This document shows, one piece after another, positions 63 to 6,006 of a stretch of DNA of 10,674 nucleotides; the first letter of the stretch is position 1; each line of letters begins with the position of its first letter. The notes under the pieces were generated by a model, which saw only the letters and a program-made list of their open reading frames with translations, made no database searches and had not been told where the DNA came from. The translations under genes were made by a program, and so were the position numbers. Source of the stretch: an uncultured Actinomycetes bacterium (lineage in GTDB: Bacteria; Actinomycetota; Thermoleophilia; Solirubrobacterales; Thermoleophilaceae); contig CAMLNW010000083.1 in assembly GCA_946481495.1 (NCBI GenBank), positions 1-10,674 on the forward strand, read 5' to 3'.

Positions 63-1310
63 GTGGCCGGCGGCGGCAAGCTCCAGGCCCCCCGGGGCAC
101 CTTCGACGTGCTGCCCGACGACGCGCAGCGCAGGCGCGAGCTCTACCGCCGCGCCGGCTCGACGCTCGGCCGCTACGGCTACCGGCCGTTTGAGACGCCG
201 GTCTTCGAGGACACCGACCTGTTCGCGCGCGGGGTGGGGGAGTCGACCGACATCGTCCGCAAGGAGATGTTCACCTTCGAGGATCGCGGCGGCCGTTCGC
301 TGACGCTGCGCCCGGAGGGCACCGCGGGTGTCGCGCGCGCCTACGTCGAGCACGGGATGCACAAGCTGCCGCAGCCGGTGAAGCTCTGGTACTGGGGCCC
401 GTTCTTCCGCCACGAGCGCGCCCAGGCCGGCCGCTACCGCCAGTTCGCACAGGTGGGAACGGAGGCGCTCGGTTCCGACGATCCGTCGCTCGACGCCGAG
501 TCGATCCTGCTGCTCGCCGAGCTGCTCGAGGCGGCCGGGGTCCGCGAGACCCGGCTGCGCCTGGCGAGCCTCGGCTCGCTCGACGCGCGCGCGGTCTACC
601 TGGACAAGCTGCGCGGCTACCTGCGCGAGCACGAGGGCGAGCTGTCGGAGGACGTGCGCGGGCGGATCGACGCCAACCCGCTGCGCGCCTTCGACGCCGA
701 CCACGAGGGGACGCGCGCCGTGATGGCGAACGCGCCGCGGCTGCTCGACAACCTCTCGTCCGAGGATGCCGATCACTTTGCCGAGGTGCGCGCGCTGCTC
801 GACGGCGCCGGCGTCTCCTACGACGTCGACCCGACGCTGGTCCGCGGCCTCGACTACTACACGCGCACCGTGTTCGAGTTCGAGAGCTCGAAGCTCGGCG
901 CGCAGAGCGGAGTCGGCGGCGGCGGCCGCTACGACGGCCTCGTCGAGCAGCTCGGCGGGCCGGCGACGCCGGGCGTCGGCTGGGCGGCTGGGATCGAGCG
1001 GATCCTGCTGGCGTCCGAGGGCAACCTCGGCGGTTTCCCGCAGCCGGTGTTCGTCGCGATCGCCGACGGCGGCGACCGGCGCGCCGCGTTCGCGCTCGTG
1101 ACGGCGCTGCGTGAGGCGGGGATCCGCACCGAGCTGGAGCAGGCGGGCCGCTCGTTGAAGGGCCAGTTCAAGCACGCCGATCGGCTCGGCGCGAAGGCCG
1201 TGGCGATCGTTGGCGACGAGATCGAGTGGAAAGACATGGGAACGGGGGAGCAGCGACCGGTGACGAACATCCAGGAGGCGGTACGGATCGCCGTGGGGCT
1301 CGACGCATGA
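63..1310 (+). CDS. hisS: Histidyl-tRNA synthetase (HisRS)
   Basis: A class II aminoacyl-tRNA synthetase that charges tRNA-His with histidine in the cytoplasm. From GTG 63 the product is 415 aa, normal for bacterial HisRS, and opens with the family's usual LQAPRGTFDVLP stretch near residue 7. Visible elements are motif 1 around T45 (TPVFEDTDLF), the LRPEGT ATP/histidine-site segment (R83, E85), motif 2 with RYRQF at 124-128, the histidine-specific LVRGLDYYTRT segment (R261, Y265, Y266), the GGGGRYDGL loop at about 285-293 and motif 3 (GVGWAAGIERILL). A C-terminal anticodon-binding domain ends the protein. A GTG at base 9 would add 18 low-complexity residues and overlap the upstream gene by 50 bp. 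GTG 63, four bases after that gene's stop, is preferred even though its Shine-Dalgarno (GGGTAG) is weak. The stop overlaps the aspS start, so the two synthetases are probably co-transcribed. Confidence 0.96.
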   Translation: MAGGGKLQAPRGTFDVLPDDAQRRRELYRRAGSTLGRYGYRPFETPVFEDTDLFARGVGESTDIVRKEMFTFEDRGGRSLTLRPEGTAGVARAYVEHGMHKLPQPVKLWYWGPFFRHERAQAGRYRQFAQVGTEALGSDDPSLDAESILLLAELLEAAGVRETRLRLASLGSLDARAVYLDKLRGYLREHEGELSEDVRGRIDANPLRAFDADHEGTRAVMANAPRLLDNLSSEDADHFAEVRALLDGAGVSYDVDPTLVRGLDYYTRTVFEFESSKLGAQSGVGGGGRYDGLVEQLGGPATPGVGWAAGIERILLASEGNLGGFPQPVFVAIADGGDRRAAFALVTALREAGIRTELEQAGRSLKGQFKHADRLGAKAVAIVGDEIEWKDMGTGEQRPVTNIQEAVRIAVGLDA

Positions 1311-3082
1311 GCACCGAGACCTTCGAGAACCGCTTTCGCAACGCGTGGTGCGGTTTGGCCCGCGCCGAGCAGGTCGGCCAGGAGCTGCGCGTGGCCGGCT
1401 GGGTCCACCGCCGCCGCGACCACGGCGGCCTGATCTTCATCGACTTGCGCGATCGCGAGGGACTGCTGCAGCTCGTCTTCCACCCGACGACGGCGCCGGA
1501 GGCCCACGAAGCAGCCCACAAGCTGCGCTCCGAGGACGTCATTACGGCCACCGGCAAGCTCGTCGAGCGTGAGGCCGGCACCGTCAACCCGGATCTGCCG
1601 ACCGGCGCGGTCGAGCTCGAGGTCACGTCGTTCGAGCTGCTCGCCGACGCCGAGACGCCGCCCTTCCAGATCGACGAGGACGACAAGGTCGGCGAGGAGC
1701 TGCGGCTGCGCTACCGCTACCTCGACCTGCGCCGCGAGCAGATGGCCGAGGCGATCCGACTGCGCCACCAGGTGACGGCCGCGATCCGCCGTCACCTCGA
1801 CGAGCGCGGCTTCCTCGACATCGAGACGCCGATCCTGACCCGCTCGACGCCGGAGGGCGCGCGCGACCACCTCGTGCCGAGCCGCAACCAACCCGGCTCG
1901 TTCTTTGCGCTGCCGCAGTCGCCGCAGCTGTTCAAGCAGCTGCTGATGATCTCCGGCTTCGAGCGCTACTACCAGGTCGCCCGCTGCTTCCGCGACGAGG
2001 ACACGCGTGCCGATCGCCAGCCGGAGTTCACCCAGCTCGACATCGAGCTGTCGTTCGTCGAGGAGGACGACGTGATCGCGCTCGTCGACGGTCTGATCCC
2101 GGAGCTGTTGAAGATCGGCGGGATCGACGTCGCCACGCCGATCGAGCGGATGCCTTACGACGAGGCGCTGCTGCGCTACGGCAGCGACCGGCCTGACCGC
2201 CGCATCCCGATCGAGATCGCTGATCTCGGCGAGGTCTTCGCCAGCTCGGAGTTCAAGGTGTTCAGCGGCGCGCTCGGCTCGGGCGGCGTCGTCCGTGGGC
2301 TCAGCGCGTCCGGTGAGTTCCCGCGCAGCCGCTTCGACGCGCTGACCGAGCAGGCCCAGCAGCACGGCGCCAAGGGGCTCGTCTGGGGAGTCGTCGAGGA
2401 CGACGGCAGCTGGCGCTCGCCGGTCGCGAAGTTCCTCACCGACGACGAGATCGCCGGCCTGATCGCGGCCACCGGCGCCGCGCCGGGCGACGCGATCCTC
2501 GTCGTTGCTGACGACCCGTCGATCGCCGCGCACGTGCTCGGCGAGCTGCGGCTCGCCGTCGGCGTGCCGGACGAGAGCCGCCACGACCTGCTCTGGATCG
2601 TCGACTTCCCGATGTTCGGCTGGAACGAGGACGAGCGCCGCTGGGACGCGCTGCACCATCCGTTCACCGCGCCGAGCGGCGATCTCGACGGCGATCCCGG
2701 CGAGTGGCGCAGCCGCGCCTACGACCTCGTCTGGAACGGCACCGAGATCGGTGGCGGCTCGATCCGCATCAACACCCCGGCCGTCCAGTCGCGCGTCTTC
2801 GAGGCGCTCGGCCTCGACGCCGACGAGGCGCAGGAGCGCTTCGGCTTCCTGCTCGACGCGCTCACCTACGGCGCGCCGCCGCACGGTGGCATCGCGTTCG
2901 GCATCGACAGGATCGTCGCGTTGCTCGCCGGCCGCGACTCGATCCGCGACACGATCGCCTTTCCGAAGACCGCCAGCGGCGCCGATCCGCTGACCGGGGC
3001 GCCGTCGCCGGTCGACCAGCGCCAGCTCGACGAGCTCGGCTTGCGGCTCAAGCCTGGCGTCATCTCCACGCCGCCCGCCTGA
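1307..3082 (+). CDS. aspS: Aspartyl-tRNA synthetase, bacterial type, probably non-discriminating (AspRS)
   Basis: A class IIb synthetase that attaches aspartate to tRNA-Asp. The product is 591 aa, the usual bacterial length. Domains in order are an N-terminal OB-fold anticodon-binding domain (about 15-125), the catalytic core with motif 1 near 168 (GFLDIETPIL) and motif 2 near 228 (FRDEDTRADRQPEFTQLD), the bacterial GAD insertion at about 285-430, and motif 3 near 527-540 (GGIAFGIDRIVALL). The loop RRRDHGG gives H39 and the segment EAGTVNP gives G91. In studied AspRSs, His and Gly at these places mark non-discriminating enzymes that also make Asp-tRNA-Asn, which GatCAB then amidates. Discriminating E. 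coli AspRS has Leu and Lys there. The chosen ATG (1307) overlaps the hisS TGA as ATGA and has a GGGG Shine-Dalgarno about 8 bases upstream. Longer starts inside hisS add unnatural Arg/Gly-rich sequence and are rejected. Confidence 0.96.
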   Translation: MSTETFENRFRNAWCGLARAEQVGQELRVAGWVHRRRDHGGLIFIDLRDREGLLQLVFHPTTAPEAHEAAHKLRSEDVITATGKLVEREAGTVNPDLPTGAVELEVTSFELLADAETPPFQIDEDDKVGEELRLRYRYLDLRREQMAEAIRLRHQVTAAIRRHLDERGFLDIETPILTRSTPEGARDHLVPSRNQPGSFFALPQSPQLFKQLLMISGFERYYQVARCFRDEDTRADRQPEFTQLDIELSFVEEDDVIALVDGLIPELLKIGGIDVATPIERMPYDEALLRYGSDRPDRRIPIEIADLGEVFASSEFKVFSGALGSGGVVRGLSASGEFPRSRFDALTEQAQQHGAKGLVWGVVEDDGSWRSPVAKFLTDDEIAGLIAATGAAPGDAILVVADDPSIAAHVLGELRLAVGVPDESRHDLLWIVDFPMFGWNEDERRWDALHHPFTAPSGDLDGDPGEWRSRAYDLVWNGTEIGGGSIRINTPAVQSRVFEALGLDADEAQERFGFLLDALTYGAPPHGGIAFGIDRIVALLAGRDSIRDTIAFPKTASGADPLTGAPSPVDQRQLDELGLRLKPGVISTPPA

Positions 3083-3096
3083 GCACGTTCAGCCAA

Positions 3097-3128
3097 TTGC
3101 CACAGGGTTGGCCTGGTGGTGGTAGTGT
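3097..3128 (+). promoter_or_regulatory. Candidate promoter for the rod RNA (-10 TAGTGT)
   Basis: TAGTGT at 3123-3128 fits the actinobacterial -10 consensus TANNNT. With 6-7 bases of spacing, transcription would begin at 3135-3136, exactly where the long closing helix of the structured RNA begins. TTGCCA at 3097-3102 resembles a -35 hexamer, but the 20-base spacer is longer than ideal. The -10 is more credible than the -35. The region overlaps the candidate aspS terminator hairpin. Confidence 0.4.
3100..3119 (+). terminator. Candidate terminator hairpin after aspS
   Basis: Seventeen bases after the aspS stop, CCACAGG (3100-3106) pairs with CCTGgTGG (3112-3119). This gives a 7-bp GC-rich stem with one bulged G and a 5-base loop GTTGG. 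No T-tract follows, so it is not a textbook intrinsic terminator, though actinobacterial terminators often lack one. It could end hisS-aspS transcription and insulate the downstream RNA, or be part of a promoter region. Confidence 0.35.
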
Positions 3129-3135
3129 CGGACTC

Positions 3136-3300
3136 AGCCCTAGCTTGTGCGCCAGCCGGCCCACATGTTGAGCCAACACCAACGGGATGGGTGTCCGGCT
3201 CGGGGCGTGACAGGCGCTCTGCCGCAAGTCGCGTCTCGGAGGACGCCCACGGTGCCAATATCAGGCCCAACCCGGTCGCCGGCAGCGGCAAGCTGGGGTT
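3136..3300 (+). ncRNA. Putative rod-shaped structured RNA, 6S RNA (SsrS)-like
   Basis: The 165 bases fold by hand into a single symmetric rod whose apical loop (3216-3220) is at its exact centre. The closing arm pairs 3136-3148 with 3288-3300 (13 bp, 3 G-U), 3150-3152 with 3285-3287, 3155-3160 with 3278-3283, 3161-3162 with 3274-3275, and 3167-3174 with 3264-3271 (7 of 8). A central bubble of 14 nt (3175-3188) faces 15 nt (3249-3263). The terminal arm pairs 3189-3196 with 3241-3248 (8 bp), 3200-3211 with 3228-3239 (12 bp, 4 G-U), and 3213-3215 with 3221-3223. Length, lack of branching and a central bubble match 6S RNA, which mimics an open promoter and sequesters housekeeping RNA polymerase. 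From memory, E. coli 6S also has TGAGCC where the 5' closing arm meets the bubble, as at 3169-3174 here (TGAGCC). Alternatives are a structured mnmA leader or an unrelated lineage-specific RNA. The pairing is seen; the 6S identity is inferred. Confidence 0.55.
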
Positions 3301-3338
3301 AATTGCGTCAAGCCCGCTCTTGCCTCTCCGGCATCTCG

Positions 3339-3344
3339 TAGAGT
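3339..3344 (+). promoter_or_regulatory. Candidate -10 box for a leaderless mnmA-operon transcript
   Basis: TAGAGT (TANNNT) ends seven bases before ATG 3352, so transcription would start at or next to the A of the start codon. This is the arrangement typical of leaderless actinobacterial mRNAs. No convincing -35 sits at the right distance: TTGCCT at 3320-3325 gives only a 13-base spacer. The alternative is that mnmA is read from an upstream promoter through the structured RNA. Confidence 0.4.
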
Positions 3345-3351
3345 GGGTTCG

Positions 3352-4845
3352 ATGCGTAGTACGGAGCTGTCCCATTCGCTGATCGAGCAGCACCTGAGCC
3401 AGCCCTACGGGCGCGGCGCGCTGGCCGATGCGCCACATACGGGCGCCGCCGGCGGGGCTGCTTGCGGCGATCTCGTCCGGATCTCGGTCCGGGTCGAGGG
3501 CGATCGGGTCGTCGAGACGGGCTTCGAGGCGTCTGGCTGTGCCGCCGTACGGGCTGCGGGCAGCGCGACCGCCGAGCTGGTGGAGGGGATGCCCGCGCTG
3601 ACCGCGGCTCTCGTGTCTCCGGAGGTCGTCGCCAAGGAACTGGGTGGCCTGGCGCCGAGTCACATGCACGCCGCCGAGCTGACCTGCGACGCGCTGCACC
3701 GCGCGCTCGGCTCGGCCGCGCGCGCGGGTGACATCGAGATCGCACCGTCGCGGACGCGCACCCGCACGCTGGTCGCGATGAGCGGCGGGGTCGACAGCGC
3801 GGCCGCCGCCCAGCTCGCACTCGACGCGGGCGACGATGTCGTCGCTGTGACACTCGAGCTGTGGTCGGACCCGGCCGGCGATGGCGAGCAGAGCTGCTGC
3901 TCGCCGCAGGCGGTGCGCGGCGCGCGCGGGCTCGCGCAGCGGATGGGCATCCCGCACTTCACGCTCGACCTGCGCGACCGCTTCCGCGGCGACGTCGTCG
4001 ACGATTTCCTCGCCGGCTACGCCGGCGGCGCCACGCCGAATCCGTGCGTCCGCTGCAACGGTCTCGTCCGCTTCGACTCGATGGTCGAGCTCGCCGACCG
4101 GCTCGGCGCCGCCAAGCTGACGACCGGTCACTACGCGCGGATCGAGCAGGACGACGTCGGACCGGTGATCCGTGCGGCGGTCGATCCGCGCAAGGATCAG
4201 AGCTACGTGCTCGCCCGCGTTACCACCGACACCCTGCGCAAGATCGGCTTCCCGCTCGGTGGCTACGCCAAGCCCGAGGTCCGCGAGCTGGCACGTCGCG
4301 CCGGCTTGCCGGTCGCCGACAAGCCGGAGAGCCAGGACCTCTGCTTCCTCGCCGGTACCGGCCAGCAGGCATTCGTGGAGCGCCACGGCAGCGACGAGAT
4401 GCAGGACGCGGCCGGGGATATCGTCGACAGCGAGGGGCACGTGCTCGGCCACCACGACGGCCACCACCGCTTCACCGTCGGGCAGCGGCGCGGCATCCGG
4501 GTCGCCGCCGATCAGCCGCTCTACGTGCTTGCCAAGGACGCGAATCGGAACCGGATCGTCGTCGGCCCGCGCGAGCAGCTCGCGACGACGACGGTCGCGC
4601 TCGGCGCCGGTCGGCTGCACCGGCCTTCGGATCGGATCGACGCAGTTCGGCTGCGCTATCAGGGGGCCGTGCTCGGCTGCACGGTCGACGCCGAGCTCGA
4701 CCCCGGCGACCACCAGGGCCTGACGATCGAGCTCGAGCGTGAGGTCGCGGCCCCGGCGCCAGGCCAGGTCGCCTGCCTGATGCATGGCGAGCATGTGATC
4801 GGCTGGGCGCTGATCGCCGAGCCAGAGGTTCCCCATGAGCGCTGA
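3352..4845 (+). CDS. mnmA: IscU/NifU-like domain fused to tRNA 2-thiouridylase MnmA
   Basis: The product is 497 aa against about 360-380 for ordinary MnmA. The extra N-terminal ~125 residues resemble an IscU/NifU/SufU Fe-S scaffold: ACGD with C38, and SGCAA with C63. The place where scaffolds have their third ligand Cys reads HMHAAELTC, so that position is Ala107 and a Cys appears later at C112. From about 135 on it is MnmA, which activates U34 of Glu, Gln and Lys tRNAs with ATP and inserts sulphur. The PP-loop SGGVDS lies at 144-149, followed by an SCCS segment, C232 and C235 in PNPCVRCN, TGHYAR, and the second catalytic Cys C331 in SQDLCFL. The CxxC plus distal Cys arrangement is that of thiolases proposed to carry a [4Fe-4S] cluster. 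ATG 3352 is preferred over GTG 3343 because of the -10 box. The gene overlaps the next one by 11 bp. The MnmA part is certain; the scaffold function is inferred. Confidence 0.93.
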   Translation: MRSTELSHSLIEQHLSQPYGRGALADAPHTGAAGGAACGDLVRISVRVEGDRVVETGFEASGCAAVRAAGSATAELVEGMPALTAALVSPEVVAKELGGLAPSHMHAAELTCDALHRALGSAARAGDIEIAPSRTRTRTLVAMSGGVDSAAAAQLALDAGDDVVAVTLELWSDPAGDGEQSCCSPQAVRGARGLAQRMGIPHFTLDLRDRFRGDVVDDFLAGYAGGATPNPCVRCNGLVRFDSMVELADRLGAAKLTTGHYARIEQDDVGPVIRAAVDPRKDQSYVLARVTTDTLRKIGFPLGGYAKPEVRELARRAGLPVADKPESQDLCFLAGTGQQAFVERHGSDEMQDAAGDIVDSEGHVLGHHDGHHRFTVGQRRGIRVAADQPLYVLAKDANRNRIVVGPREQLATTTVALGAGRLHRPSDRIDAVRLRYQGAVLGCTVDAELDPGDHQGLTIELEREVAAPAPGQVACLMHGEHVIGWALIAEPEVPHER

Positions 4846-5245
4846 TACCGGTCGCGATTTCGACCAAGTCGAGATCGAGGCACCGCTCGATCTCGCCTTC
4901 CAGAGCGTTGTCCGACTGGTCGTCGGCGGCATCGCCGAGCAGGCGAACTTCGGCTTCGAGGCGATGGATGATCTCCAGCTGGCGATCGAGCGGCTGCTCG
5001 CCGAGACCGGTAGCGACGGTCGCGTCAAGTTCTCGTTCGAGCTCAGCGACGGGGCGGTTCGCGCGCGGATCGGACCGCTGCGCGAGAGCGGGCTCACCGC
5101 TGCGCTGCAAGAGACCAACGGCGACGCCGGCGCGCTGTCGTTGGCGCGGATCCTGTCGGCGGTCGTAGATTCGTTCGGTGTCGAGCCGTCGACAGACGGC
5201 CAGATCGTGGTGAGGCTGGAGAAGCTGGGAACGCCACGCCCGTGA
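4835..5245 (+). CDS. RsbW-like HATPase-fold protein, probable anti-sigma factor
   Basis: A 136-aa cytoplasmic protein with no signal peptide or membrane segment. Its layout follows the RsbW/SpoIIAB family: beta-alpha start (IEAPLDLAFQSVVRLVVGGIA), a long helix FGFEAMDDLQLAIERLL, beta strands VKFSFEL and VRARIGPL, and a terminal strand QIVVRLEKLG. In active kinases of this family the helix has ExxxN (Mg-ATP binding). Here E52 is present but the Asn place is Ala56, and no DxGxG box is visible, so ATP binding or kinase activity may be lost. The start ATG has a good Shine-Dalgarno AGAGGT (4824-4829) and lies 11 bp inside mnmA. Its stop overlaps the sigma-factor GTG (GTGA). Direct coupling to a SigB/F/G-type sigma gene is the main evidence for an anti-sigma role. 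No RsbV-type antagonist is in the window. Specific partner and signal are unknown. Confidence 0.75.
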   Translation: MSADTGRDFDQVEIEAPLDLAFQSVVRLVVGGIAEQANFGFEAMDDLQLAIERLLAETGSDGRVKFSFELSDGAVRARIGPLRESGLTAALQETNGDAGALSLARILSAVVDSFGVEPSTDGQIVVRLEKLGTPRP

Positions 5246-6006
5246 GCGACTACAGCCAGGCTGGGCGTGCCGCACGACAGCGCGAGGACCGCGAACTGCT
5301 GCGCCGCTACCACGCGGATGGCGACCCCTCGGCGCGAGAGCAGCTGATCGCGCGCCACCTACCGCTGGTCCGCTCGCTGGCACGCCGCTACGCCGGTCGC
5401 GGCGAGCCGCTCGAGGACATCGAGCAGGTCGGGTCGATCGGCCTGATCAAGGCGATCGACCGTTTCGACATCGAGCGTGAGGTATCGCTGGCGACCTATG
5501 CGACGCCGAACATCGTCGGCGAGATCAAGCGCCACTTCCGTGACAAGGGCTGGGCGATTCGCGTGCCGCGCTCGCTGCAGGAGCTCAACGCGAAGATGTC
5601 GGGCGCGATCGACGACCTGACCGCGCGGCTCGGACACTCGCCGAGCGTCGGTGAGATCGCCGAGTCGCTCGGGACGACCAACGAGGAGGTGCTCGAGGCG
5701 CTCGAGGTCGGTTCTGCTTACACGGCGCTGTCGCTCGACGCCGGTCCGGCGGGCAGCGACGACGACAGCGACCCGATGGAGACGATCGGCGGCGAGGACG
5801 CCGAGTTCGACCGCAGCGAGGACCGCGCGACGCTCGGCCCGGCGCTCGCCCAGTTGCCAGCCCGCGAGCGCGAGATCCTGCGCATGCGCTTCGAAGAAGG
5901 ACTGCCGCAGACCCAGATCGCGGAGCGTGTCGGTCTGTCGCAGATGCACGTCTCGCGCCTGATCCGCCGCTCACTGGCGACGATGCGCGCCGAGTTGGAT
6001 GAGTAG
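5242..6006 (+). CDS. RNA polymerase sigma factor, SigB/SigF/SigG subfamily
   Basis: A 254-aa group 3 sigma-70 factor that directs RNA polymerase to an alternative (stress or differentiation) promoter set. Region 2 spans roughly 18-110, with LPLVRSLARRYAGRG, the core-binding EDIEQVGSIGLIKAIDRF segment, and a region 2.4 that includes EIKRHFRDKGWAIRVPR. Region 3 is at about 110-175 (LGHSPSVGEIAESLG) and region 4 at about 200-254 (LPAREREILRMRF then the helix-turn-helix TQIAERVGLSQMHVSRLIRR). An acidic linker (about 170-195, rich in D and E) joins regions 3 and 4. The GTG start overlaps the anti-sigma stop as GTGA, the common translationally coupled anti-sigma/sigma order. The stop lies 8 bp inside the next gene. 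The sequence cannot say whether it is SigB, SigF or a lineage-specific relative, so no symbol is given. Confidence 0.93.
   Translation: MSDYSQAGRAARQREDRELLRRYHADGDPSAREQLIARHLPLVRSLARRYAGRGEPLEDIEQVGSIGLIKAIDRFDIEREVSLATYATPNIVGEIKRHFRDKGWAIRVPRSLQELNAKMSGAIDDLTARLGHSPSVGEIAESLGTTNEEVLEALEVGSAYTALSLDAGPAGSDDDSDPMETIGGEDAEFDRSEDRATLGPALAQLPAREREILRMRFEEGLPQTQIAERVGLSQMHVSRLIRRSLATMRAELDE

Follow-up and report, generated by a model that had tools for sequence, protein, structure and literature searches.

6S RNA mimics an open promoter, holding RNA polymerase in check. The gene for the 6S-1 RNA of Bacillus subtilis (bsrA) is flanked by aspS on its 5' side and by yrvM on its 3' side, as described in passages of PMC11077062, and rarA lies close to it according to a section of PMC8414754. 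The phylum Actinobacteria has been regarded as an exception: in their passages on this point, papers of 2022 and 2024 describe it as lacking 6S RNA, one Streptomyces candidate apart, this exception being noted in a passage of PMC11077062. Ms1 is regarded as a likely 6S variant in a part of PMC6582537. A streptomycete small RNA found at a 6S-1-like synteny fails to bind polymerase (passages of PMC9130861), which counts against a 6S reading of the locus described here. Thermoleophilia are placed as a deep-rooting lineage of Actinobacteria in a section of PMC6544083. No literature linking 6S RNA to Thermoleophilia or to Rubrobacter came up in a search, an earlier listing being possible in Wehner et al. 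2014 or in the Rfam full set; the papers listed for 6S RNA together with rsbW concern Staphylococcus and Synechocystis.

Here, we analysed a stretch of 10,674 nucleotides from an uncultured member of Thermoleophilia, hereafter referred to as the window. Segment 3134-3303 on the forward strand is very probably a gene for 6S RNA that has an extended -10 promoter to itself and is located directly after aspS. An earlier note had proposed a 6S RNA at this place, and the assignment has held up: it is carried by a match to the RF00013 family, a fold far better than that of shuffled sequences, a conserved structure with compensatory changes and strong covariation, and a conserved promoter element and place. 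Its function as 6S RNA, its expression and its binding to polymerase are inferred from the sequence. The RNA belongs to a known family and comes from a phylum reported to be without it.

The RNA gene and its neighbours

The features of the locus, all on the forward strand, are the following.

1226-3082, +, aspS, aspartate--tRNA ligase, the upstream neighbour (NCBIfam NF001750, 801.7 bits, residues 36-609); the true start is probably later than 1226
3120-3128, +, extended -10 promoter element TGGTAGTGT, with the hexamer TAGTGT at 3123-3128
3134-3303, +, very probable 6S RNA (ssrS-like) gene, matched by RF00013 and by our own models R1 and R2; likely start 3135/3136
3136-3159, +, closing arm, 5' side, paired with 3278-3300 (fold, and helices 1 and 2 of alignment A5)
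3170-3178, +, predicted pRNA template GAGCCAACA at the bubble edge, with the start opposite C3177
3189-3248, +, apical arm with end loop (fold, and helices 5-7 of A5)
3278-3300, +, closing arm, 3' side (fold, and helices 1 and 2 of A5)
3343-4845, +, MnmA with a NifU-like N-terminal domain (PF01592, residues 14-122; PF03054, residues 141-337; NF001138)
4835-5245, +, RsbW-like protein, whose relatives are named anti-sigma regulatory factor; a Pfam search of this protein gave no match
5242-6006, +, SigB/F/G-type sigma factor (TIGR02980, 273.5 bits)

The gap in which the earlier note had seen a 6S-like rod extends from the aspS stop at 3082 to mnmA at 3343. The outermost pair in the fold of 3134-3303 is 3136/3300, in agreement with the ends it had given to the rod. 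The comparison with Rfam that it had proposed gave a match of RF00013 to 3134-3303 (+) over the whole model (positions 1-187 of 187), with 46.8 bits and an E-value of 5.1e-7, a small margin of 0.4 bits above the cut-off of 46.4. Eight Rfam matches were listed for the window at E-values up to 5, and none besides 6S reached its own cut-off. Two covariance models were also built. R1 was made from 22 copies, with the window among the training rows, and scored the window at 104.3 bits; R2 was trained on 20 copies, drawn from two families in the order and excluding the window, and gave the window 92.3 bits. For the copies supplied from further families in the class, R2 scores were 53-105 bits. An antisense reading was ruled out, as R1 scored 104.3 bits on the forward strand versus 13.1 bits on the opposite one; matches of R1 and R2 on the opposite strand exist because the rod is nearly symmetric, and the strand of the gene is fixed by the -10 box.

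The MnmA protein (tRNA 2-thiouridylase) encoded by 3343-4845 has a NifU/IscU-like domain at its N-terminus, residues 14-122. Many MnmA matches in relatives likewise start near residue 9-16, and a NifU-MnmA fusion seems, from these sequences, to be conserved in the order and beyond. Behind the sigma factor, segment 5999-10283 encodes two family-5 substrate-binding proteins and an Opp/Dpp-type permease. Among 120 homologues listed for the RsbW-like protein (4835-5245), three bear the name Thermoleophilaceae bacterium.

Fold, promoter and predicted pRNA template

The minimum free energy (MFE) of segment 3136-3300 is -91.5 kcal/mol, with a mean of -72.9 for dinucleotide shuffles, a z-score of -4.45 and no shuffle out of 200 folding as well. 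The opposite strand has a z-score of -1.94, and 5 of its 200 shuffles were as good. The window MFE has 60 pairs, and not about 54 as had been counted earlier, and the description of one unbranched rod is an idealisation because the single-sequence fold has two small local hairpins in the central region. Compared with the nearest genome, whose RNA is 82% identical, 49 of these 60 pairs are unchanged, 6 have one-sided changes, 5 have compensatory changes and none is broken. Two more genomes of the same genus break 9 and 12 of these pairs, respectively, so parts of the single-sequence MFE are not conserved. The nearest genome has about 800 nt of extra sequence between aspS and the 6S RNA (L162:2101-2900), in which short motifs recur, CCAACGCCAGGACCCGCGGG and GGCAAACG-like.

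The conserved core of the rod comprises the closing arm, a central region with the bubble, and the apical arm, in a structure of 43 pairs. In a plain MAFFT alignment of 20 copies (A3), from which the structure was itself predicted, 21 of 43 pairs show double changes, with pairing in 93.3% of cells. Alignment A5, with 55 copies from the whole class, the window included, leans towards the structure because it was fitted to it; in A5, double changes occur in 32 of 43 pairs and 91.5% of cells pair. The closing arm, helices 1 and 2, has double changes in 14 of 20 pairs, and in the apical arm the paired share of cells is 95% for helix 5, 84% for helix 6 and 88% for helix 7. The covariation score of A5 is 0.473, versus 0.179 +/- 0.007 in shuffles (0 of 500 as high) and at most 0.12 with the partners slid, so that the conservation in relatives which the earlier note had named as a check is present. 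At the site where GAGCC is paired with GGTTC in most relatives, the window has an A-C mismatch, and 8 of the 55 rows of A5 are unpaired there. A fortuitous pairing of GC-rich DNA, which the 67% G+C of the region might suggest, is refuted by the dinucleotide shuffles and by covariation beyond 500 shuffles and slid controls, and has practically no probability left. The earlier judgement that the rod goes beyond what a high GC content gives is borne out by the same folding energies.

A TANNNT -10 box had also been pointed out upstream of the rod. This hexamer, TAGTGT at 3123-3128, leaves 7 nt before position 3136, and such a box was recovered in every copy compared: in 55 of 55, TANNNT ends 3-6 nt ahead of the RNA match, versus 1.2% of random positions in the same loci, and the extended form TGnTANNNT is found in 41 of 55, versus 0.2%. 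Since a strict sigma-70 scan of 2950-3450 gave no -35/-10 pair, only an (extended) -10 element is supported. The promoter also bears on whether the rod could instead act in cis within the aspS-mnmA stretch, as a terminator, an attenuator or an mnmA leader. The distance from the 6S gene to mnmA is only about 40-50 nt, and several relatives have T-rich sequence after the 3' end; against this, the RNA has its own -10 element in all 55 copies, its link to aspS is kept while the downstream gene differs, and a terminator scan of the window found none. We consider a cis-acting element very unlikely.

The motif TGAGCC, noticed earlier beside the bubble, is located at 3169-3174, at the edge of the bubble, which is the site of pRNA templates. 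Among 124 phylum matches, 105 have CCnnCA in nt 21-75, versus 12% of letter shuffles, which ignore relatedness. The predicted pRNA, GUUGGCUCAA, has GG at positions 4/5, AA at 9/10 and A at -1, and these positions are described as hallmarks of 6S-derived pRNAs in a passage of PMC8414754. GG at 4/5 or 5/6 with an A before the start is what distinguishes a pRNA template, and in the window both are present as sequence hallmarks. Synthesis would probably begin opposite C3177, reading 5'-GUUGGCUCAACAUGUGGG, and the pRNA would begin with GUUGGCUC.

Distribution and gene order

Among 61 relatives, RF00013 matched 21 and left 40 without a match. R1 found the RNA in 36 of the 61: in 24 of 31 genomes of the window's own family (f1), 12 of 12 of f3, and none of the 13 and 5 genomes, respectively, of f2 and f4, which are families of the same order. 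Of the 25 relatives without an R1 match, seven belong to f1, and in two of these, G014 and G025, a contig end truncates the RNA. A 6S relic was sought in f2 and f4. The best match of R2 without filters in 16 loci had 17.9 bits over 39 nt, nothing convincing, and Rfam gave nothing at an E-value of 0.1 in 8 loci. Because both searches came out in this way, a loss of 6S RNA within the order, in f2 and f4, appears likely from the sequences searched. In eight loci of these families (L133, L139, L144, L151, L154, L156, L159 and L160), aspS is kept near mnmA, and no 6S RNA was found between the two genes.

In the class, RF00013 matched 115 of 199 genomes (86 over the cut-off), and in the phylum as a whole it matched 129 of 396 (90 over the cut-off). 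The Rfam cut-off hides many copies, as 39 of the 129 phylum matches fall below it. There is one match per genome, except in G494 and G497, which have two each; the second in G497 covers model positions 59-133 only, and contamination is possible for these double matches (8% in G494). One of the groups with matches, Eggerthellaceae, was named through protein homologues. In another, Aquicultor-like group, Candidatus Aquicultor appears in two of the 120 homologue rows listed; other rows are named Actinobacteria, and one row at 82% is named Firmicutes. A plain alignment of 31 copies below the cut-off shows strongly conserved blocks, and RNAalifold recovers only 23 pairs from it, 7 of them with double changes. 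In the 6S candidates below the cut-off (L288, L292-L305 and L307-L325), the CACCCACCT..AGGTGGGTTCAT hairpin and the 5' bubble edge are conserved. One group of these candidates adjoins an Eggerthellaceae-type rarA on the opposite strand.

RbpA (PF13397) matched 41 of the 396 phylum genomes, 37 of them strongly. RF00013 and RbpA were found together in G074 only, where the RbpA match is partial, and all 37 genomes whose RbpA match is strong gave no RF00013 match. We take RbpA to mark the class that contains Streptomyces and Mycobacterium, where Ms1 is known, and a Corynebacterium control supports its use as such a marker. This association with RbpA comes mostly from a single clade and counts as no independent evidence. 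It touches the reading of the window RNA as an Ms1-type RNA, which we consider unlikely: RF00013 stays unmatched in all 37 genomes of what is presumably the Ms1-bearing class, and the window has a full-length RF00013 match, pRNA-template hallmarks and a place after aspS as in the 6S-1 of Firmicutes. Ms1 binds core polymerase and not the sigma-A holoenzyme; the window RNA matches the 6S model and has a 6S-1-like synteny. What speaks for Ms1 is that it is a polymerase-binding RNA known from this phylum and structurally related to 6S (passages of PMC9130861), and that the window RNA, like Ms1 of mycobacteria and Streptomyces, is a 6S-like rod of the same phylum.

The place of the 6S RNA after aspS recurs in the phylum. 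Of the 124 phylum matches whose flanks were fetched, 75 have an upstream aspS in the same orientation, and in 66 it is within 400 nt; by score, this holds for 72 of 87 matches over the Rfam cut-off versus 3 of 37 below it. The downstream side varies: mnmA may follow at once or several hundred bases further on, or the neighbour may be a RarA-like gene. In a scan of genome contigs for mnmA covering 80 loci, only one also had an aspS match that passed the filter. Since aspS lies upstream both in these matches and at B. subtilis 6S-1, the link between aspS and 6S RNA looks, from gene order, older than the split of Actinomycetota and Bacillota.

The sigma-factor neighbour and comparison with known systems

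The SigB/F/G-type gene of the window starts 1.9 kb past the RNA, behind mnmA and the RsbW-like gene. In f1, such a gene follows mnmA in 18 of the 19 loci that reach past mnmA, and the 19th shows only rsbW; none was found in f2, f3 and f4 in 11 loci with 1.5 kb past mnmA. An intermediate reading, in which the rsbW-sigF neighbour was limited to the window's family and incidental, rested on these flanks of 1.5 kb. It was reversed by longer flanks, and a sigF match in G195 contradicts it as well: of 60 loci outside f1 that were read for up to about 6 kb downstream, 19 (7 of 20 and 12 of 40) carry a SigB/F/G gene on the same strand, and these 19 belong to eight families (f6, f7, f12, f20, f26, f48, f73 and f78). 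The earlier note had called a sigma-factor operon beside a 6S RNA notable, and this recurrence supports it. A RsbW-like gene precedes sigF in 13 of the 19 positive loci, found by tblastn in 10 and as open frames in L326, L329 and L330; the frame in L330 resembles RsbW at an E-value of 9e-18, below the NCBIfam cut-off. The SigB/F/G gene is absent near the RNA in all 8 loci of f5 and in the single locus of f8.

In a search of 25 genomes with TIGR02980 at an E-value of 1e-50, the gene lies 1.2-5.7 kb from the RNA in 19 positive genomes and is the sole such gene in 14 of these. It lies at 7.9 kb in G294, copies away from the RNA are found in G138, G048 and G036, and at this threshold none was found in G075 and G253. 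The chance that a single gene in a genome of 2-3 Mb falls in such a stretch is about 1 in 1000, but the linked loci depend on one another through descent. The linkage may be an old inherited gene block or a functional pairing. The Aquicultor-like locus L330:1-5251 carries a 6S RNA, a RsbW-like gene, a SigB/F/G-type sigma factor, an AI-2E-type transporter and a frame that, by eye, looks like alaS, a block that we take to be reminiscent of the aspS-alaS region of B. subtilis.

In the mechanism that we propose, a transcript of about 165 nt would fold into a mimic of an open promoter and, as growth slows, bind the form of polymerase that contains the housekeeping sigma factor. It would be released once polymerase uses the bubble strand as the template for a short pRNA. 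Because the housekeeping holoenzyme would be held by the RNA, alternative sigma factors would be favoured, for example the SigB/F/G-type one encoded 1.9 kb downstream. More tentatively, a single stretch of chromosome may then encode the two halves of a polymerase switch, namely an RNA that sequesters the housekeeping holoenzyme and an alternative sigma factor that gains from this. The neighbouring gene makes such a linked sigma switch a testable idea.

A broader history can be put forward only tentatively, with somewhat less than even confidence. 6S RNA may be ancestral in Actinomycetota, located after aspS before the split from Bacillota and accompanied by the rsbW-sigF module in deep-branching classes; the RbpA-bearing class would have lost it, and Ms1 would have taken over. 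If deep-branching classes kept 6S RNA at the place known from Bacillus, one would ask at what point, and for what reason, a single class exchanged an RNA that binds the holoenzyme for Ms1, which binds the core enzyme; this exchange is testable in cultured relatives.

The window RNA resembles 6S RNA/SsrS (RF00013) in its length, in its order of closing arm, bubble and apical arm, in GAGCC at the bubble edge and in the full-length model match. It differs from known members in its Thermoleophilia lineage, in a score barely over the cut-off, and in an extended -10 element without a -35 recognised by the scan. To our knowledge, no SigB/F/G-type gene lies at bsrA of B. subtilis, whereas the window has one 1.9 kb downstream. 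Like B. subtilis 6S-1 RNA, the window RNA is found directly after aspS, and, as with rarA near 6S-1, a RarA-like motif lies near 24 of the 124 phylum matches, downstream on the same strand in 15 and upstream on the opposite strand in 9. However, the next gene downstream is yrvM in B. subtilis and mnmA in the window.
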